Source of the DNA: Acidobacteriota bacterium
GTDB lineage: Bacteria > Acidobacteriota > Terriglobia > Versatilivoradales > Versatilivoraceae
Length of the DNA: 46,022 nt
Reading direction: 5' to 3'
Assembly (NCBI GenBank): GCA_022826755.1
Contig: JAJDUG010000031.1
Span: 1 to 46,022 of the forward strand
Part shown: positions 16,395 to 31,697 of the stretch, one piece after another
Position numbering within the stretch: the stretch's first letter is position 1
Layout: every line of letters begins with the position of its first letter
Program-made: the position numbers and the translations under genes
The notes under the pieces: model-generated
What the model saw: only the letters and a program-made list of their open reading frames with translations
Told to the model about the DNA's origin: nothing
Databases searched by the model: none

Positions 16395-18026
16395 TCACTC
16401 TGCAGGACCGCTGTTGCCGGCCCCATTCTCCCCACCCGGAGGCCGGGCAGCTCGCCATCCCGCCTGCATCTGACGGGCGAGCTCTTGCACGGTGCGGGCG
16501 CTGGCCGGAGAGGCGGCCAGGTTGACCAGTTCCAGCGGGTCGGCGTCGTGGTCGTAGAGTTCGGTGCCCTTGAGGTGTCCGTCCAGCCCCACCCATTCGG
16601 TGTAGCGGTAGCGGTCGGTCCGCATGGATTGACCCAGGCTGTGGTCGTGCCGGGGGAAGTGGCTGAAGGCGGCCTGCTTCCAGGACCGTTCCGGGTCGCT
16701 CAGCAGGGGAACCAGGTCGCTTCCCTCCACGTGCCTGGGAATGGGCAGACCGGCCAGCCGGCAGAGGGTCGGGTAGAGGTCCACCAGCTCAACCAGCGAT
16801 TCGATGTGCGAGGCTCGGGCGCGGCCGGGCGCGGCAATCAGCAGCGGCACTCGAGTGGCCCACTCGAACAGGGTCATCTTGGCCCAGGTGCCGTGCTCGC
16901 CCAGGTGCCACCCGTGGTCTCCCCAGAAGACCACAATGGTTTTGTCTGACAGCCCGTGGGTTTCCAGTGCCTGCAGCAGCCGCCCCACCTGGGCATCCAC
17001 GTAGCTGACACAAGCCAAGTAGGCCTGCCACACCCGTGCCTGGAGGGAATCGGAGATGGGGCCGCCGGCAGGGATCCCCCGGTAGCTGCGCAGCTCCCAG
17101 CCGGCAAAGCGGAGCGCCTCTTCCCGGGTGGAGGGGTACTTGGGGAAGTCCAGGTCGATGCGCCAGACTTCCCGGGCCCGGGGGTGCCAGTAGGTCACCG
17201 AGTTGTAGATCGACCAGAGGGGTGCGCCGGCCGGCGGCTGGCGGTGCTGCGGAAGCCGGATGCGGTCGAGCGGATACTTGTCGAAGTATTTCTTGGGAGC
17301 GACCAGGGGCAGGTGGGGCCGGTAGTAGCCCACGGCCAGGAAGAAGGGCCGGTCCTTCACGGCCGCCATGGCGGCGATGGCCTGTCCGGTCATGCGTCCG
17401 CCGTAGAGGGCTTCGTCGGGCACGTCGGGGGCCTGGATGGCGGGGCAATCGTTTCTGGGAGCGATCACGGTGGGGACCCGCGCCCGCTGGGCGAACTCCA
17501 CCTTGGCGATAGCCGCTTCGTCCACCGTCTCCCACATCTCCCGCTTCCGTCCCGGCGAGCTGGGCGCCGACCAGCCCTCGGGATGGTCGGTTTGGTTGTG
17601 ATAGATCTTGCCGAAGGACTGGGTGTGGTAGCCGTGGTTTTTGAAGTGCTCGGGGAGGCTGGGGCTTTCCCGGAAGCGCTCGCGATGGAAGGGGTGGCGA
17701 TTGGAGTAGTGGCCAGTGGTGTCGGGCCGCAGTCCGAACATCAGGGACACTCGCGAGGGACTGCATTGGGGGGCCTGGCAGTAGGCCCGGCGGAAGGTGG
17801 TCCCCCGGGCGGCCAGCCGGTCGATGCTGGGAGTCTCAACGGCCTGTTCGCCGTAGCAGCCCAGCAGGGGGCGCAGATCGTCCGCGGCGATGAAGAGGAC
17901 GTTGGGGCGGTCCTTGGCCTGGGTGGCGGTCGGAGCGGCCGCCAAAGAGGCAGCCAGAAAAGGCAGGGCCGCCCCCACCAGTACCCGGACGACCCATCGT
18001 GGTGGAATCGCCGTCTCGAAAATCAT
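16395..18026 (-). CDS. Sulfatase, iduronate-2-sulfatase-like
   Basis: 543 residues from ATG 18026 (AAGGAG eleven bases upstream). A signal peptide (about 1-37) is followed by RPNVLFIAADDLRPLLGCYG, the metal-binding Asp pair typical of sulfatases. The formylglycine motif CSPSR has Cys at about residue 88, in context QCSPSRVSLMFG. Later come VGYYRPHLPLVAPKKYFDKY, VVFWGDHGWHLGEHGTWAK and the C-terminal region HFPRHDHSLGQSMRTDRYRYTEW. These blocks match the iduronate-2-sulfatase (S1_7-type) group. Likely a periplasmic or secreted exo-sulfatase acting on sulfated polysaccharide. Cys-type activation requires formylglycine-generating enzyme, not in the window. It follows the second sulfatase by 75 bases. 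Confidence 0.93.
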   Translation of the reverse strand: MIFETAIPPRWVVRVLVGAALPFLAASLAAAPTATQAKDRPNVLFIAADDLRPLLGCYGEQAVETPSIDRLAARGTTFRRAYCQAPQCSPSRVSLMFGLRPDTTGHYSNRHPFHRERFRESPSLPEHFKNHGYHTQSFGKIYHNQTDHPEGWSAPSSPGRKREMWETVDEAAIAKVEFAQRARVPTVIAPRNDCPAIQAPDVPDEALYGGRMTGQAIAAMAAVKDRPFFLAVGYYRPHLPLVAPKKYFDKYPLDRIRLPQHRQPPAGAPLWSIYNSVTYWHPRAREVWRIDLDFPKYPSTREEALRFAGWELRSYRGIPAGGPISDSLQARVWQAYLACVSYVDAQVGRLLQALETHGLSDKTIVVFWGDHGWHLGEHGTWAKMTLFEWATRVPLLIAAPGRARASHIESLVELVDLYPTLCRLAGLPIPRHVEGSDLVPLLSDPERSWKQAAFSHFPRHDHSLGQSMRTDRYRYTEWVGLDGHLKGTELYDHDADPLELVNLAASPASARTVQELARQMQAGWRAARPPGGENGAGNSGPAE

Positions 18027-18101
18027 GCCCGCACCATCTCCTTCCGCCGGTCTCCCCACTGCCCCCGAAGCATCCGCGCCGCCGGCCCGGCGGAGCCGGA
18101 A

Positions 18102-19490
18102 CTACTCCCTTCGCGGATTCCACCAGCCATCCAGCAGCCGTTCCATTTCCTGCCGGCGGCTCCTCAGTCGGGGGCTCCCGGCCAGATTGTTCATTTCGTT
18201 GGGGTCGGCAGTCAAATCGAACAGCATTGCCCCCTCATCCGAACCCTCGGGGAGGATCAGCTTGTGGTTCCCCCAGCGCACCCAGCGGTAGAGGACCTCC
18301 GCCTCCGGCTGTTCCAGCTCCATGGCGTAGCCGCGATAAATCTCGCCGAAGACCGGCCGAGGCGGCAGGGTAGCCCCTCCCCGGACAAACGGCAGCAGGT
18401 TCAGCCCCGGAAGCTCCTCGCCCGCCTCCCCGATTCCGGCCGCGGCCAGCAGCGTGGGCGCCAGATCGACGGTGCTCACCAGGCCCGCATGGGTTCCGGG
18501 CCGGGCCTGGCCCTCCCAAGCGATCAGGATCGGGGTGCGGATGCCCTGCTCGAAGGGGGTGTTTTTGCTGCGCACCGACAGGTTGGGATTCTCCGGGTCC
18601 ACCACGTAGCCGTTGTCCACCACGAAGACCACCAGGGTTTGCCTCAGCAGACCCCTCTCCCGCAAGGCGCCCAGCAGTTCCCCTACGGTTTCGTCCAGCC
18701 AGGTGATGCACGCGTAGTAGGGCGCCAGATGGTCGGGCAGGCGGGGGTCTTCCGCATAGGGCTCGAGGTGCCTGCGGGGCGGGTTGTGGGGCAGGTGGGG
18801 CAGGAAAGGGGCGTACCAGACAAAAAAGGGCTTTCCGTCCGCGGACGCCCGGTCGACGAAGTCGTAGATGGGCTGCAGGGTCTGCCGCCCGATGGCCAGC
18901 CCGGCGTCGCCGTTGCCGTGCCCCGATTTCATGCCCAGCGCGGCAAAGGCCGGGTCCTTTTCGATCGGATGAGGCTTGGCCAGGGTCATGCCCTCGTCGA
19001 AGCCCGCGTTGGCGAAGTCGCCTTCCCAGTGCTTGCCGGTCTGCAGGGTGCGGTATCCGGCCCGGGAGAGCAGGCGGGGGAGGGTGTCCACCCGGCGCAC
19101 CAGGTAGCTGGCCCGATGGCGGTTCTCCAGGGTGTGGGGCAGATCGAAATAGGGGCGGTTGAAGGTGACGCCGCTCTGGTGGGGGTAGAGCCCGGTCAGC
19201 AGGGTGGCCAGCGAGGGGCGGCACAGGCTGTTGGGGACATAGCCGTTGACGAATCGGGCCGAGCGGCTGGCCAGGTCGTCGATGTGAGGGGTCCGCACCA
19301 GCGGGTTGCCCATGAAGCCGAAGTCGCCGTAGCCCTGATCGTCGGCGATGATGAGCAGGATGTTGGGAGGGGTGCTGCCCGGTTGGCAAGCCGTCCCCAG
19401 GCAGAGCATCGCCGGCAGCAGGACAGGCAACGCCCATCGTCCTCGCCGGCTCCGCGGCACACCCGGGGCAGCAACCTTGTTTTTCGGCAT
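18102..19490 (-). CDS. Sulfatase-family hydrolase with atypical active-site signature
   Basis: 462 residues. Hydrophobic leader (about 19-35, WALPVLLPAMLCLGTAC) ends in a Cys that could be lipidated, though the -3 position is not a typical lipobox. Sulfatase core: PPNILLIIADDQGYGDFGFMG with metal Asps, the active-site block NSLCRPSLATLLTG, LQTGKHWEGDF, FFVWYAPFLPHLPH and VVFVVDNGYV. The usual signature is C-x-P-x-R; here the Arg position (residue 94) is Leu, while the Cys (90) and Pro (92) remain. VVDNGYV replaces the common 'DHG' metal block. Activity as a sulfatase is therefore uncertain; it may be a phosphatase-like or altered member. First gene of the two-sulfatase operon. Confidence 0.88.
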   Translation of the reverse strand: MPKNKVAAPGVPRSRRGRWALPVLLPAMLCLGTACQPGSTPPNILLIIADDQGYGDFGFMGNPLVRTPHIDDLASRSARFVNGYVPNSLCRPSLATLLTGLYPHQSGVTFNRPYFDLPHTLENRHRASYLVRRVDTLPRLLSRAGYRTLQTGKHWEGDFANAGFDEGMTLAKPHPIEKDPAFAALGMKSGHGNGDAGLAIGRQTLQPIYDFVDRASADGKPFFVWYAPFLPHLPHNPPRRHLEPYAEDPRLPDHLAPYYACITWLDETVGELLGALRERGLLRQTLVVFVVDNGYVVDPENPNLSVRSKNTPFEQGIRTPILIAWEGQARPGTHAGLVSTVDLAPTLLAAAGIGEAGEELPGLNLLPFVRGGATLPPRPVFGEIYRGYAMELEQPEAEVLYRWVRWGNHKLILPEGSDEGAMLFDLTADPNEMNNLAGSPRLRSRRQEMERLLDGWWNPRRE

Positions 19491-19842: not shown

Positions 19843-21356
19843 ATGCCCAGCAAGACGATCGAGCCCCAGACACGCCAGGGCAGGGAGTACATCGCGGGGG
19901 AATGGAAGCCCCACCGGCAGGAGTTGGAGGTGCTCAACCCCTCCGACCACTCCACCATCGGAGCGGTCCCCGTCTCTCAAGTCGAGAGCCTGGACCGGGC
20001 CGTGGCCGCCGCCAACGATGCCCTGGATACCTGGGGAAACCATTTGAAGTGGTCCTGGGTCCGGCGGGCGGAAGTGGTGGACACCTGGGTGCAGCATGTC
20101 CGGAAGCACCAGGCCGAGCTGGCCTTCCTGATGGCGGTCGAGAGCGGAAAGCACCTGGACGAGTCCCGGGCCGACGTGGTGGAAGCCATCCACATGCTGC
20201 AGTATTGCGCCGGCCGTGGCCGCCAGCCCATCGGCGAACGGGTGGCCTCGGAGATCCCCGACAAGGAAGCCGAGATCTACCTGGCCCCGCGGGGCGTCTG
20301 CACCGTCATCACTCCCTGGAACTTTCCGGCGGCCATCCCCACCTGGCTGATCGGGCCCGCCCTGGTCTGCGGCAATCCGGTGGTCTTCAAACCCTCCGAG
20401 GAGACTCCCCTGACCGCCCAGTACCTGGTGCGGCTGTTCGACCTGGCGGCCCGGGAACACGGCGCGCCCCCGGGCGTCCTCAGCCTGGTCCACGGACCGG
20501 GGCAGGTGGGGGAGCACCTGGTCCGGCACCCGGACACGGTGGGACAGCTCTTCACCGGCTCTCACGGGGTGGGGTCCAAGGTCAAGCAGATAGCAGCCGC
20601 CCACTACGACAAGTTCGCGGTTTGCGAAATGGGGGGCAAGAACTCGCTGATCGTGCTGGAGGACGCCAACCTGGAGCTGGCCGTCAACGCGGCCATCCTG
20701 TCGGCCTACAAGACCACCCACCAGCGCTGCGTGTCGTCGGACCTGTTGATTGTCCAGAAGTCGATTGAGCCCGAGTTCACCCGGCGCTTCCTGGAAGTCA
20801 CCGACCGGGTCCGCTTCGGAGACCCGCTGAACGCCGCCTTCCTGGCCGGCCCCCTGATCAACCGGAAGGCGGTGGACAAGTTCGAGGACTGCGCTTCCCG
20901 GATCGAGGAAGAGTGTGAAGACCGCCTGCGCCAGGGGGGCGGGAGGGCCCGGGCAACTTCGTCCGTCCCAACGTCTTCCGGATGTCCAATCGTCCGGGGA
21001 CCTTTGCCCTGACCCAGGAGTTTTTCACCCCCAACGTGGTGATCGTTCCGGTGGAGGACTTCGAGGAAGCCATGCAGGTGGCCGGCGCCAGCGAGTATGG
21101 GCTCTCCATGTCGCTGATGACCGATGACTTCCGAAAGATGAGGGAGTTCAAGGTGCTGGGCAGGTGCGGCCTGAAGTACGTCAATCTGCCCACCATCGGC
21201 GCCGAGGTGCACCTGCCTTTCGGGGGCATGAAGCGCTCCGGCACGGGCATGCCCTCGGCGGCCTGGCTTTTCAACTACATGTGCCACGCCACCGCCTTCA
21301 CCGTCAACTACGCCGAGGAGATCAGGATGGCCCAGGGCCTGTCCGCCGAGGTGTGA
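19843..21356 (+). pseudogene. NAD(P)-dependent aldehyde dehydrogenase, single-base frameshift
   Basis: Starts at ATG 19843 (AAGGA upstream). The first part (to about 20950) carries YIAGEWKPHRQ, TPWNFPAAIP (catalytic Asn), FKPSEETPLTA, FTGSHGVGSKV, the general-base Glu in VCEMGGKN and the nucleophile Cys in HQRCVSSD. The second part, one frame over, continues GNFVRPNVFR, FTPNVVIVPV, EYGLSMSLMTDD, the FGGMKRSGTG signature and a normal C-terminus to 21356. The frame changes from 1 to 0 inside GGGCGGGAGGGCCCGGGC (20936-20953), which fits loss of one base. Restored, the protein is about 504 residues, typical of the family. Either a recent mutation or a base-calling error in a G/C run. The substrate is not predictable. 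Confidence 0.85.
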
Positions 21357-21490: not shown

Positions 21491-23293
21491 ATGTCGCCAG
21501 CCAGAGTCCCCGCGAGTCCCGTTATCCGAAAGGATCCAGCCCGGCTGCTGCCGGCCCTCTGCCTGCTCCTGCTGCTGGCGGGGTCCGGCTGTACCCTTCC
21601 CGACTCGACCCCGCCGGAGTTCGAGTCGCTGAGCCTGGGCAAGGACCAGTGGCAGTACATCGGAGGAGCCTGGGAGGAGAGCGAGGAGGGGGTGATGACC
21701 CCGCCCAGGAAGGTGGCCGACGAGCACCTGGCCTTCAACACCAGCCGGGCCTATGCCGACTTCGAAGCCGAGTTCGACTTCCGCTGGAACATCCAGAACT
21801 GCGGCGCCGGGCTGATCTTCCGCGCCCGGGATGCCCGGCAATACTACATGGCCCACTTCCCCTGCACCGGCCAGCAGTACCGGGCCGAGCACTTCTGGGG
21901 GGCCATCTCCAAGGTGGACGCATCGGGGTGGGTGCAATTTCTGCAGAAGGAACTGGTCTCCGGCGCGCCCAGCGAGATCGGGATCTGGCACAAGGTCAGG
22001 CTGGTGGTCGAGGGGCCCGAGTTTCGACTCTGGGTGAACGGCCGGCCGCTGCCGGTGGTCAGGGACGACACCTACGCCGGACCGGGCTTCGTGGGCCTGG
22101 AGAGCTTCAACGCCCGCGACCCCGACACCATCGGCCCCTACGGGGACCCCATCGTCAACATCGGGGCCGGCAGCAGCTTCAGGAACGTGAGGATTCGGGG
22201 GCGAAAAGACGGCTCGGCGGCCTGGGACCCGGGACCCAAGCCGGTCCGGAACTATGTCTACCCCCTGGGCGACACCCCCCTGGGCAAGTGGCAGTATGCC
22301 TCCAGCCTGGGGCGGGCTCCCAACGGCGACCTGATCATGAAGCTGGCGGTGGCCAAGGAGCACCTGGTCCCCGGAGCCGTGCAGGTGCTGCTGCGCTCCA
22401 CCGACAACGCAAGAAGCTGGTCCGAGCCTTGGGAGCTTCCGGAAGCCCTCAAGAACGGATCCTTTCACACCGGTCCCGACGGCCTGCTGCGGCTGCACTG
22501 GGTCCAGCATGAGCCGCCCTTCCGGATTCTCACGGCCGCCTCCAGCGACAACGGCAAGACCTGGGGGGACATCGAGGAGCGGGGCCGGCTCAGGTTCGCC
22601 AAGGACCTGGAGGTCGGAAACGCTTACGTGGGGAAGATTGTGGAACTGAAAAACGGGACTCTGCTGCGCTTCGGCTACGCGGTGGGACCCAACGAGAGCG
22701 TGCACGGCGCCATCATGGAGAAAGGCGGGGTCCGATACTGGGGTCCCATCACCGAGGCCGATTTCGGCTTCTCCATCCGCTCGACCGACGGAGGCAAGAC
22801 CTGGTCGCCGCCGGTCGACGTCAACGGCCCCAACCCCAGCCCCCATTACTTCATGGTGGCCAAGGAGACGGGTTCGGAAGTTTCGGCGGCGGAAACGCGC
22901 CAGGGGCACATCGTGGCCCTGATTCGGGCCTACACCTCGCCCTGGATGTGGGAGAGCTGGTCCACCGACGGCGGCAAGAGCTGGAGTCCGGCCGCCCGGG
23001 GACCCTTCCCCATGTATGCGGCCACCAACTCCATGACCTCCACCGCTTCCGGCTACCTGGTCATCGCCGGGCGCCACCCCGGGGTGGGCCTGCAGGTGAG
23101 CCGGGACGACGGCATGACCTGGCGCACCACCCGGATCGACACGCCCTTCTACGCCAACGGGTTCTCCCTGGAAGTGGAGCCGGACGTGGTGCTCTACATC
23201 TACGACGGCAAGTATTCCGACCCTCGCGTGCGGGCCCAGCTCATCCGGGTCACTCCGGAGAGAGCCGAGCCGGTTCGAGTCAGCGAGGGTTGA
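21491..23293 (+). CDS. Lipoprotein with LamG-like and Asp-box (sialidase-type) domains
   Basis: 600 residues from ATG 21491 (AAAGGAGAGTGAACC upstream). A leader with LLLLLAGSGC suggests lipidation. Residues about 40-240 form a concanavalin-like/DUF1080-type sandwich (AYADFEAEFDFRWNIQN, IWHKVRLVVEGPEFRLWVNG, GFVGLESFNARD). From about 255 on there is a sialidase-like propeller with five Asp boxes of the S-x-D-x-G-x-T-W type: STDNARSW (about 302), SSDNGKTW (350), STDGGKTW (430), STDGGKSW (490) and SRDDGMTW (536). Family members cleave terminal sugars; real sialidase activity cannot be assumed because the catalytic Arg triad was not verified. Co-directional with the aldehyde dehydrogenase and convergent with the next dehydratase. 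Confidence 0.87.
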   Translation: MSPARVPASPVIRKDPARLLPALCLLLLLAGSGCTLPDSTPPEFESLSLGKDQWQYIGGAWEESEEGVMTPPRKVADEHLAFNTSRAYADFEAEFDFRWNIQNCGAGLIFRARDARQYYMAHFPCTGQQYRAEHFWGAISKVDASGWVQFLQKELVSGAPSEIGIWHKVRLVVEGPEFRLWVNGRPLPVVRDDTYAGPGFVGLESFNARDPDTIGPYGDPIVNIGAGSSFRNVRIRGRKDGSAAWDPGPKPVRNYVYPLGDTPLGKWQYASSLGRAPNGDLIMKLAVAKEHLVPGAVQVLLRSTDNARSWSEPWELPEALKNGSFHTGPDGLLRLHWVQHEPPFRILTAASSDNGKTWGDIEERGRLRFAKDLEVGNAYVGKIVELKNGTLLRFGYAVGPNESVHGAIMEKGGVRYWGPITEADFGFSIRSTDGGKTWSPPVDVNGPNPSPHYFMVAKETGSEVSAAETRQGHIVALIRAYTSPWMWESWSTDGGKSWSPAARGPFPMYAATNSMTSTASGYLVIAGRHPGVGLQVSRDDGMTWRTTRIDTPFYANGFSLEVEPDVVLYIYDGKYSDPRVRAQLIRVTPERAEPVRVSEG

Positions 23294-23311: not shown

Positions 23312-24622
23312 CTACCACCCCTTCCAGCTCCCGTCCTCGTGTCGGTACTGCCGGAAGGGCAGCGGCTGGTAGGGCATCTTGGCGATGTCCTGCTCCTTGA
23401 CCTCGACTCCCAGCCCCGGGAGATCGGTCACGTTGACGTATCCGTCCTCTATCCGCCATTCGTGCTCCACGAAGCGGTCGAACAGATCCCAGTAGCCGGT
23501 CTCCTGGATCAGGAAATTGTTCATCACCGAATCGGCGGCCAGGCTGGCGCCGTAGTAGAGCGGCCCGCCCCCGATGTGGGGGGCCATCAGCATCTGGTTC
23601 TGCTCGGCCGCCTTGGCGATCTCCAGCAGAGCGGTGATCCCGAACGCGTGCAGCGTGTCCGGCTGCAGCACGGCGCAGGCCCGCTGGTCGATGATGGGCT
23701 TGAAGTCGTTCAGGGTAAAGAGCTTCTCTCCGGTGGCGATGGGCACCGGGCTGTTCCTGGAGACCGCCAGCAAGGCATCGATCGAGCCCACCTTGACGGG
23801 TTCTTCCAGAAAGAGCGGCTTGTAGGGGGCCACCCGGCGGGCATAGTCGATGCTGAGCTCCGGGGTGGGGCTTCCATGGGTATCCAGCAGGATATCGAAG
23901 TGGGGGCCCATGGCGCTGCGCATGGCCTCCACGCAGGCCACGCTGTGGGCCACCGCGGCCTCGTCCATGGGCCAGGTGCGGGTCTCCAGGGGATTCCCCT
24001 TGACCCCGGCAAAGCCGGCCTCGGCCACGCTCCTGGCTTTCTCTATGGCCGCCTCGGGGCTGTCGAACAGGGCTCCCCCGGTGTAGACCCTGACCTTGTG
24101 GCGTTTCCGGCCTCCCAGGATGGTGTGGATGGGCACCCCCCAGGCCTTGCCGGCGATATCGTAGAGCGCGATGTTGATGGCCGCGATGGCGGTGCCGAAG
24201 GTGGCCCCGCCCTTCCAGGGGAGCCGGTTCTGGATGTCCTCCGTCAACCGCACCACGCCCAGCGGATCCTGTCCGATCAGCAACGGCTTCCACTCGTGCA
24301 GGGTGGCCTCCACCGAGGGCACCAGCCACTCTCCGCTGCCCTCGCCCCAGCCCACGATGCCGGCATCGGTGGTGATCTTCAGGAAAAGCCAGGGCTTGGC
24401 CGTGCTCGAAATGAGTTCTCCGGTGGTGGGATCGCGGATTTCCTGGCCCGTCGGGACGGAAAACTTGTAGGTCTGGATCCCGGTGATCTTCATGGCTCCT
24501 TTACCTCCTGATTGTGCGTAGCTGCTCTCCGGGGCCACTCCCAGGGCCAGGCCCGCCGATCCGGCCTGGACCATGAAGCCGCGGCGAGACACCCGCTGAC
24601 CCTCGCTTGCCGGCTGGTTCAT
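23312..24622 (-). CDS. D-galactonate dehydratase-like enolase-superfamily enzyme with Tat leader
   Basis: 436 residues from ATG 24622 (GAGAGGGTG upstream). N-terminus GQRVSRRGFMVQAGSAGLALG is a Tat signal. The enzyme proper starts at MKITGIQTYKFSVPTG. Metal ligands: Asp in FDILLDTHG, Glu in LFLEEPV, Glu in IATGEKLFT; acid/base His in MLMAPHIGGGP. This DTHG/EEP/GEKL/PH set is that of acid-sugar dehydratases such as galactonate and gluconate dehydratases. Unusually, a very strong ribosome binding site (AGGAGGTAAAGGAG) lies inside the frame just before an internal ATG at 24493, which matches the normal start of cytoplasmic family members. Two forms, exported and cytoplasmic, are possible. Substrate unknown. 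Confidence 0.9.
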   Translation of the reverse strand: MNQPASEGQRVSRRGFMVQAGSAGLALGVAPESSYAQSGGKGAMKITGIQTYKFSVPTGQEIRDPTTGELISSTAKPWLFLKITTDAGIVGWGEGSGEWLVPSVEATLHEWKPLLIGQDPLGVVRLTEDIQNRLPWKGGATFGTAIAAINIALYDIAGKAWGVPIHTILGGRKRHKVRVYTGGALFDSPEAAIEKARSVAEAGFAGVKGNPLETRTWPMDEAAVAHSVACVEAMRSAMGPHFDILLDTHGSPTPELSIDYARRVAPYKPLFLEEPVKVGSIDALLAVSRNSPVPIATGEKLFTLNDFKPIIDQRACAVLQPDTLHAFGITALLEIAKAAEQNQMLMAPHIGGGPLYYGASLAADSVMNNFLIQETGYWDLFDRFVEHEWRIEDGYVNVTDLPGLGVEVKEQDIAKMPYQPLPFRQYRHEDGSWKGW

Positions 24623-24746
24623 AGCACACCCTCTCGATTCAAAGAAAGTCCTTGCCTGATGGATCAAAACTTAGTCCTTTCCGGACCGATTGTAAAGCGC
24701 CGGGAAGGGGGTGGGTACAGTACAATGCCTTCGGAGGTGAGGGATC

Positions 24747-25676
24747 GTGGGCAGAAAGGCAGGCGCTGGGTTGGTCGCCGTTGCATGGCTGTTGGGCCTG
24801 TGTCTGCCGGCCTCGGCTGAAGGCCTGCTCGAGAACCACCCCGAACTGGGGCAGCAGTTGCGGGAGGGGCTCCGGCTTCTCTACGGATACGAGCTGGACC
24901 GGGCCGATCGAGTCTTCAGCCGGATGGTGAAAGACCATCCGGAGCGCTCGATCGGGTATGTGTACCGGGCGGAAATATTCTGGTGGAAGGCACTGCTGGA
25001 CAAGCGCAACAAGCGGCTGGCCCGGTCGTTCGAGCGATACACCAGGCAAGCCATCGACAAGGGCAAGGCCCTGCTGAAAAAGGACGAGGGAGACTTCTAT
25101 GCCTGGCTCTACCTGGCCAAGGCCTACGCCAATCGCTCCCGTTTCAAGGTCACCGTGACCCGAAGCTACCTGGGTGCGCTGCTGGCGGGCCTGAGGGGCA
25201 GATATCACAACCAGCAGGCCGCCGAGTTGCGGCCGGACACCATCGACTGCCTGATAGGCATCGGCGGCTTCAACTACTTCAGCGGAGCCCTGCCGGCCGT
25301 CATCAAGCCCTTTGCCTTCCTGATCGGAGCCCGCGGCGATCGGGAGGAGGGGCTCAGGCAGTTGGAGACAGCCGCAACCAAGGGGGAATACGGCCAGACC
25401 ACGGCCAAGATCGTGCTGTTGGGAGTCTACTACAGTGAACGCCGCTTCGACGACTACAGTGACCTGCTGTTCCGCCTGATCGGACAGTTTCCCTCCAACC
25501 CCGTCTTCTACGAATGGTTGGCCAATGACTTCATCCATCGGAAGCGGGTCGACGAGGGGATTGACCTGTTCAACCGGTGGATCGAGGAGGCCGGCGGAGA
25601 CGGCGCCCCCGCGCGTCCGCTGGAGTTTCTGGAAACGCAGCGGGATCGCCTGGTGTGGAACAAGGAGAAGTCGTAG
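24747..25676 (+). CDS. Secreted TPR-like repeat protein of unknown function
   Basis: 309 residues from GTG 24747, chosen because GGAGGTGAGG lies directly upstream and a signal peptide follows (LVAVAWLLGLCLPASA). The mature part is helical with TPR-like spacing: LRLLYGYELDRADRVFSRMVKDHPE, DFYAWLYLAKAYANRS, TTAKIVLLGVYYSERRFDDYSDLLFRLIGQFPSNP, NDFIHRKRVDEGIDLFNRWIEE. The central segment (DTIDCLIGIGGFNYFSGALPAVIKPFAFLIGARGD) is more hydrophobic. Such proteins serve as periplasmic scaffolds; no partner is obvious. It diverges from the Tat dehydratase across 124 bases and is followed 30 bases later by the TfoX-like gene. Confidence 0.85.
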   Translation: MGRKAGAGLVAVAWLLGLCLPASAEGLLENHPELGQQLREGLRLLYGYELDRADRVFSRMVKDHPERSIGYVYRAEIFWWKALLDKRNKRLARSFERYTRQAIDKGKALLKKDEGDFYAWLYLAKAYANRSRFKVTVTRSYLGALLAGLRGRYHNQQAAELRPDTIDCLIGIGGFNYFSGALPAVIKPFAFLIGARGDREEGLRQLETAATKGEYGQTTAKIVLLGVYYSERRFDDYSDLLFRLIGQFPSNPVFYEWLANDFIHRKRVDEGIDLFNRWIEEAGGDGAPARPLEFLETQRDRLVWNKEKS

Positions 25677-30536: not shown

Positions 30537-31697
30537 TTACTTCCACTCCGGATGCCGGTGGGAGCGGAGGGCCTCCATGTCGAAATCCACGCCCAGGCCG
30601 GGTTTTCCGCTGAGGCTGAACTCGCCGCCGTGGAAGTTCATGGGTTCGGTCGTCAGCCGGTTGTAGGCTTCGATGAAGGAGGTGCTGTGCTCCAGCCGGT
30701 AGAAGTTGGGCGTGTTCATCATCACGTGGGAACCGGCCACGATCTGCAGGGGGCCCATGGCGTTGTGGGGGCTCATGGGGACGTAGTAGGGCTCGGCCAG
30801 GCTGGCGATCTTGCGCAGCTCGGTGATGCCCCCGGTCCAGAGCACGTCCGGCATCAGGTAGTCGGCCAGCCCCTGCTGCAGGATGGGCAGGAAGTCGAAG
30901 CGGGTGAAGAGGCGCTCGCCCACGCAGATGGAAGGGGTCACGTGCTCTCGGACCTGCCGCAGGGCGTCGATGCTCTCGGGGGGCACCGGCTCCTCGAACC
31001 AGGCGATCTGCGACTCCTCGTAGAGGCGGTTGGCCAGCCTTATGGCCGTGGGCACGTTGTAGTGGCCGTGGGCGTCGATCAGTATTTCCACCTTTTCGCC
31101 TACGGCTTCCCGCACCGCCCGCACGATGTTGCAGCCCAGCTCTTCTCCCTCGGCTGAGATCTGGCCGTCGAGATAGGCGGTGTGGAAGGGCTGCATCTCC
31201 AGGAAGGGATCCAGCTTGAGGGCCTCATGGCCGGCCTCGACGGTGGCCCTGGCGGCCGCGCCGTACTGCTCGGGCGTGTGGCAGCCGAAGAACCAGCCGT
31301 TGGCGTAGAGCCGGATGCTGTCCCGCAGCTTGCCACCCAGCAGGTCGTAGACCGGCAGGCCCAGGGCCTTCCCCTTGATGTCCCACAGGGCCATGTCCAC
31401 TCCGCTCAAGGCCACCGTCGGCAGGCCCCGCGCTCCCAGGTAGGTGAAACGCCGGTAGTTCTGCTGCCACAGGCTCTCGCTCTGAAACGGGTCCCGGCCC
31501 ACCAGGCTTTGGCGCAGCAGCTCGATGGTCCGGGCGCTCAGCAAGCAGCCGCCGCCGGGAGAGTTGCTGGCCTCGCCCCAGCCATGGATGCCTTCGTCGG
31601 TGTCGATGCGGACGAAGGTCCAGTCCCCCTCGAAGGCGCCGGCGTTGTCCGGATAGCGGGGCCTGATCACGTAAGCCGTGACGTCAGTGATTTTCAT
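30537..31697 (-). CDS. Acid-sugar dehydratase, D-galactonate/mannonate dehydratase-like (enolase superfamily)
   Basis: 386 residues; ATG 31697 has AGGAGGACAGAGACC upstream. N-terminal capping domain MKITDVTAYVIRP, then the barrel: LKLDPF, Asp in EILIDAHGHYN, Glu in IAWFEEPVPPES, Glu in ICVGERLFTRFDF, and the acid/base His in VPMSPHNAMGP. C-terminal TEPMNFHGGEFSLSGKPGLGVDFD closes the active site. This full set matches the galactonate dehydratase/mannonate dehydratase branch. Cytoplasmic. It lies 60 bases downstream of the PIG-L gene and the two probably form an operon. Confidence 0.93.
   Translation of the reverse strand: MKITDVTAYVIRPRYPDNAGAFEGDWTFVRIDTDEGIHGWGEASNSPGGGCLLSARTIELLRQSLVGRDPFQSESLWQQNYRRFTYLGARGLPTVALSGVDMALWDIKGKALGLPVYDLLGGKLRDSIRLYANGWFFGCHTPEQYGAAARATVEAGHEALKLDPFLEMQPFHTAYLDGQISAEGEELGCNIVRAVREAVGEKVEILIDAHGHYNVPTAIRLANRLYEESQIAWFEEPVPPESIDALRQVREHVTPSICVGERLFTRFDFLPILQQGLADYLMPDVLWTGGITELRKIASLAEPYYVPMSPHNAMGPLQIVAGSHVMMNTPNFYRLEHSTSFIEAYNRLTTEPMNFHGGEFSLSGKPGLGVDFDMEALRSHRHPEWK

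Follow-up and report, generated by a model that had tools for sequence, protein, structure and literature searches.

The question raised by this locus, on the minus strand of a 46,022-nucleotide stretch of Acidobacteriota DNA (here called the window), is whether a single gene for a sugar-acid dehydratase-like enzyme specifies one protein or two, residing on different sides of a membrane. An earlier note on this DNA had described a Tat leader opening at 24622, and this description was borne out: following the ATG at that position, the leader comprises MNQPASEGQRVSRRGFM, a hydrophobic core, and then SYA ahead of QSGG, and it scores 18.8 bits against NCBIfam TIGR01409 (TAT signal; cut-off, 16.7 bits) and 23.9 bits in a second search. 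On the basis of this signal model, the long form is a predicted Tat substrate that would be exported and cleaved, the likely signal peptidase site lying between SYA and QSGG.

The remainder of the protein belongs to the MR/MLE (enolase-superfamily) enzymes, with matches to Pfam PF02746 (50.5 bits; gathering score, 22) and PF13378 (171.3 bits; gathering score, 29.4), its best match among solved structures being a putative D-galactonate dehydratase (PDB 3rr1). The motifs LDTHG (from residue 246; LDTHG/LDFHG), EEPV (273), TGEK (297; GEK/GER), and APH (347) align with those of 3rr1, and we take them to represent the metal-ligand and acid/base residues of galactonate-dehydratase-like enzymes. While the protein resembles acid-sugar dehydratases of the galactonate dehydratase type in its Pfam domains and in these aligned motifs, it differs from them in its Tat leader and in scoring below every listed NCBIfam equivalog cut-off, including that for galactonate dehydratase (NF010624; 266.6 against 311 bits), and a substrate was, therefore, not assigned; it is probably a sugar acid. 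Two further MR/MLE relatives are encoded on the minus strand of the window, at 30537 to 31697 (35% identity) and 1146 to 2258 (26% identity), the former being close to solved putative dehydratases.

Table 1. Coordinates of the gene, its leader, and its two candidate translation starts in the window
Feature	Position	Strand	Remark
Whole ORF, 436 aa	23312..24622	minus	Tat leader plus MR/MLE (enolase-superfamily) sugar-acid dehydratase-like enzyme
Tat signal peptide, residues 1-36	24515..24622	minus	Predicted cleavage site
Twin-arginine motif SRRGFM, residues 12-17	24589-24572	minus	
Enzyme domain, residues 44-436	23315..24493	minus	Full length of leaderless relatives
Leader-start Shine-Dalgarno GAGAGGG	24629..24635	minus	Weak
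15-nt run ACAATCAGGAGGTAA	24501..24515	minus	Invariant in 7/7 orthologues
Internal Shine-Dalgarno AGGAGG	24504..24509	minus	10 nt 5' of internal ATG
Internal ATG (Met44)	24491..24493	minus	Start of predicted cytoplasmic form MKITGIQTY

The linker between signal peptide and enzyme, QSGGKGA, is encoded by CAA TCA GGA GGT AAA GGA GCC, after which the ATG of Met44 follows; the DNA here reads CAATCAGGAGGTAAAGGAGCC ATG AAG ATC ACC. The earlier note had placed a ribosome-binding site just before this ATG, at 24493, and had recognized the latter as the canonical MKIT start of the family, both of which hold; 20 leaderless relatives begin there. Of the 14-nt motif that it had singled out, the AGGAGGT part proved to be conserved, whereas the second GGAG is confined to the window's own genome, AAAGGC, AAAAGC, or AATGGC occupying that position in the six remaining orthologues. 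The AGGAGGT sequence is encoded by the Ser-Gly-Gly-Lys portion of the linker, with the Shine-Dalgarno (SD) element spanning codons 38 to 40, just behind the predicted signal peptidase site, in a stretch that is presumably under little constraint at the protein level. The computed SD:anti-SD duplex energy is -11.6 kcal/mol at 37°C, the 10-nt spacing between AGGAGG and ATG is on the long side, and the computed accessibility is middling (0.37 to 0.59 unpaired). In the genus, the SD of the leader start is the weaker of the two (-7.2 against -12.8 kcal/mol for the internal SD at 30°C), while in the sister genus (genome G008) the leader start is preceded by AGGAGG and both elements are strong (-11.2 and -12.8 kcal/mol, respectively, at 30°C). 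These energies assume an anti-SD sequence for the genus, an exact match to the 16S 3' end having been recovered in one (G008) of the five genomes searched; the 16S rRNA model RF00177 found no match in G000 or G001, even though G001 is a single 5.1-Mb contig. Given a weak leader SD and a strong internal one, most of the product made in the genus may be the cytoplasmic form.

A strong match to the gene is present in 9 of the 12 genomes of the family, namely, seven of the genus, G008 (81% protein identity), and G007 (56%, from another subgroup). The 5' end is available in G008 and in all but one of the seven genomes of the genus (the copy in G005 being cut at residue 200), which yields seven orthologues. 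All seven retain the Tat leader, AGGAGGT, the 10-nt spacing, and the Met44 ATG. The longest invariant DNA run in the 1,308-nt gene, 15 nt (ACAATCAGGAGGTAA), lies at the SD, and the second longest, 11 nt, lies at the EEPV motif. Such identity persists across a shift in GC3 from 0.84 to 0.88 in the genus to 0.29 in G008, with synonymous sites saturated to the extent that dS between them (NG86) is not computable. Among 326 degenerate codons specifying the same amino acid in all seven sequences, 54 (17%) are identical, and codons 37 to 40 represent four consecutive cases. These observations are evidence for nucleotide-level constraint on the internal SD, although the carriers belong to two genera only and are effectively two independent lineages.

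It was previously suggested that two translation products from one gene would give two locations, and this proposal gains support from conservation, the SD being the best-preserved DNA stretch of the gene. We judge it somewhat probable that one mRNA with two starts gives rise to an exported and a cytoplasmic dehydratase. Tat exports folded proteins. Initiation at 24622 would produce a Tat precursor, which would fold in the cytoplasm, be moved across the membrane by Tat, and be cut near the junction of SYA and QSGG, while ribosomes recruited by the strong AGGAGGT and starting at 24493 would produce the same dehydratase in a leaderless form that stays cytoplasmic. The two forms would be distinguishable by their N-terminal peptides, (M)KITGIQTYK as opposed to QSGGKGAMKITGIQTYK. 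This model implies that ribosomes use both starts and that both forms are active, with products in two compartments.

The earlier note had considered enolase-superfamily dehydratases to be normally cytoplasmic, a generalization that fails for this lineage: the MR/MLE paralogues L006 and L010 of the window's genome lie at Tat-model matches, and neither carries a Met where the family starts. In that genome (G000), contigs C33 (L166, paralogue L010) and C65 (L161, paralogue L006) encode enolase-superfamily-like proteins behind Tat leaders, as do L129, L155, and L165 as judged by a look at their N termini, and in most such proteins of G000 the family-start Met is absent. In this lineage, Tat export of the enolase superfamily, thus, seems to be common. 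An additional paralogue, L009 (G000:C46:25865-26971), contains one in-frame TGA inside the match and may be a pseudogene or reflect a sequencing error. The window's genome contains 73 Tat-model matches (taken at E values up to 10), behind whose leaders 101 (37 plus 64) in-frame ATGs were found, part of the scan reaching only some 250 bases past each match and 100 ahead of it. The SD of the window gene is the strongest, the next reaching -10.3 kcal/mol. A genome-wide dual-start rule was rejected, as no other of the 73 attains -11.6 kcal/mol at an internal ATG.

The same comparison bears on the possibility that the leader start alone is used and that the SD-like sequence acts as a programmed elongation pause that aids folding or targeting. 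Tat export is post-translational, which speaks against such a role; moreover, a pause would require no ATG at a set distance, whereas all seven orthologues retain Met44, and among the other Tat-model matches of the genome none places a comparable element ahead of an ATG. The position of the SD would suit a pause, in that it falls inside the codon 16 to 60 range in which, according to excerpts of Fluman et al. 2014 (PMC4359368), pauses partly dependent on SD-like sequences are enriched in E. coli membrane proteins, although N-terminal pauses are apparently depleted in periplasmic proteins in those same excerpts. Taken together, we regard this explanation as unlikely.

Equally unlikely, in our estimation, is that the element is a relic, whereby an upstream Tat leader became joined to an ancestrally cytoplasmic enzyme, whose old ribosome-binding site and ATG persist as functionless linker codons. 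Its appeal stems from the leaderless relatives (L035 to L052, L060, and L061; 54 to 72% identity), all 20 of which have starts aligned at Met44, with Met in 17 and GTG-coded Val in three (L044, L046, and L048), which marks Met44 as the start of the cytoplasmic family; some have in-frame codons farther upstream, where no Tat-type leader was discerned by eye. In a 36-row tree, the clade (support, 100/100) is placed with leaderless rows at a fork that the tree does not resolve, and a second Tat-leadered group (95/94), which also includes two leaderless rows, stands elsewhere, a topology which fits separate leader gains without proving them. None of the 20 leaderless relatives, however, has an SD beyond -7.4 kcal/mol, and a strong ancestral ribosome-binding site is, therefore, not evident. 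Furthermore, the SD codons are unchanged despite saturated synonymous sites and their rarity in the GC-rich genus.

Other Tat-leadered relatives (L029, L053, L055 to L059, L062, L116, L117, and L169 to L172, some from the same contig or from near-identical species) occur in other Acidobacteriota, in Planctomycetota, and in metagenome-assembled genomes filed under other phyla. These distant relatives (53 to 59% identity) have the enzyme family and the Tat leader in common with the window gene but lack a strong internal SD, theirs being weaker than -7 kcal/mol in all cases, and Met44 is replaced by Leu in L055, Val in L058, and Pro in L116 and L117. The substitution of Pro for the family start Met in the latter two (genomes G343 and G366; about positions 1440 to 1600; 58% identity) indicates that the exported form alone can be made, which makes them a naturally occurring contrast to the window gene. 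As regards relatives lacking either feature, which the earlier note had named as grounds for refutation, both features are retained in all seven clade orthologues with a 5' end, while outside the clade the 20 leaderless relatives possess only the MKIT-type start and the more distant Tat-leadered ones the leader without a strong internal site. Because leader and strong internal site do not co-occur outside the clade, the dual-start design is, among the sequences compared, specific to it.

A further explanation is coincidence, in which the codons of a Gly-Gly linker form an SD by accident. Sequences of the form GGN-GGN are indeed SD-prone, and the linker peptide, recoded with genome codon usage, averages -7.4 to -7.9 kcal/mol; however, an SD as strong as that observed arose in only 0.6 to 0.8% of trials for the window's genome (P = 0.006 to 0.008; 0.0077) and in 3.7% for G008 (P = 0.0372). 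The product for the two genomes is 2.9e-4 (about 2 to 3e-4) if they are independent, an assumption made plausible by saturation, though not certain. Across 249 genes of the window's genome (429 kb, representing the window plus 20 stretches and about 9% of the genome), none of 1,516 internal in-frame ATGs reaches the energy of the internal SD, and a second gene-calling rule gave 0 of 1,281 in the same genome and 0 of 414 in G008, the genes having been called by simple ORF rules rather than by a trained gene finder. SD strength is otherwise a poor start marker in this genome, where first-ATG starts average -4.35 kcal/mol.

Codon shuffles within the gene returned an SD energy at least equal to that observed in 34 of 10,000 cases for the window gene and in 544 of 10,000 for the G008 gene. 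When the window gene's own codons were shuffled, the match at codons 37 to 40 was reproduced in 0 of 10,000 cases, while shuffling only synonymous codons in G008 gave identity at codons 37 to 40 in 189 of 5,000 and a run of at least 15 nt anywhere in 201 of 5,000. The match is reproduced at these rates in G008 because that AT-rich genome favours these codons (GGA, 0.38; GGT, 0.36), and cross-genus identity is, as a result, only moderately significant by itself. The weight of the conservation test rests instead on the retention in the GC-rich genus of codons that are rare there (TCA, 4%; GGT, 11%). Set against these results, coincidence appears to be quite improbable. A slowdown caused by rare codons was likewise set aside, since the codons are common in the sister genus and yet are kept there too.

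That the internal ATG is the sole real start and the leader a mis-called extension, as its weaker SD in the genus might suggest, is highly improbable in view of a recognizable Tat signal above the family cut-off, a leader retained between orthologues of 81% protein identity (70% identity between genera across leader residues 11 to 30) together with a dN lower than dS among genus members (0.038 and 0.153, L001 versus L026), and an upstream region that is invariant over at least 18 nt in six genus members and carries AGGAGG in the sister genus. Over its full length, however, the leader is less conserved than the enzyme (58% against 84% identity between genera), which counts against the two-start reading.

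The window gene is probably on its own transcript, as a 124-nt upstream gap separates it from a TPR gene that is read divergently, and the gene on its other side is convergent, the latter neighbour also being present in G008. No sigma-70-type site for an internal promoter was found at 24450 to 24800 in a search based on consensus only. Neighbouring genes (16395 to 18059, 18102 to 19490, 19843 to 21012, and 21491 to 23293) encode two sulfatases, an aldehyde dehydrogenase, and a BNR/3-keto-disaccharide hydrolase-like protein, perhaps representing a neighbourhood for the use of sulfated glycans.

N-terminal proteoforms that differ by a signal peptide are already known in bacteria. In-frame alternative starts give rise to short forms of Salmonella OmpX and PagC without the Sec signal, as reported in excerpts of PMC11005335, and the window gene is similar in that one gene has two in-frame starts, with a short form devoid of the export signal. 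As described there, the Salmonella long forms are outer-membrane barrels with a Sec signal and the evidence is from ribosome profiling, whereas the window gene has a Tat leader and the evidence is evolutionary. Since the leader is of the Tat type, the exported form would cross the membrane as a folded enzyme, and activity could be expected of either form. Among open-licence papers, none was found that describes a conserved internal start behind a Tat leader.

We give about even odds to a fuller account, in which a cytoplasmic sugar-acid dehydratase acquired a Tat leader and the linker gained, or retained, a strong start that was then maintained by nucleotide selection, such that one mRNA would supply folded, active enzyme to both periplasm and cytoplasm. 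The ratio would be set by the two SDs, a weak one followed by a strong one in the genus and two strong ones in the sister genus. If this is true, placing a start site behind a Tat leader would offer a simple means of having one metabolic enzyme at work on either side of the membrane, from a gene to which automatic annotation gives one product. That the SD is the most conserved DNA of the gene across a large GC shift suggests a screen by which other dual-location enzymes may be sought.
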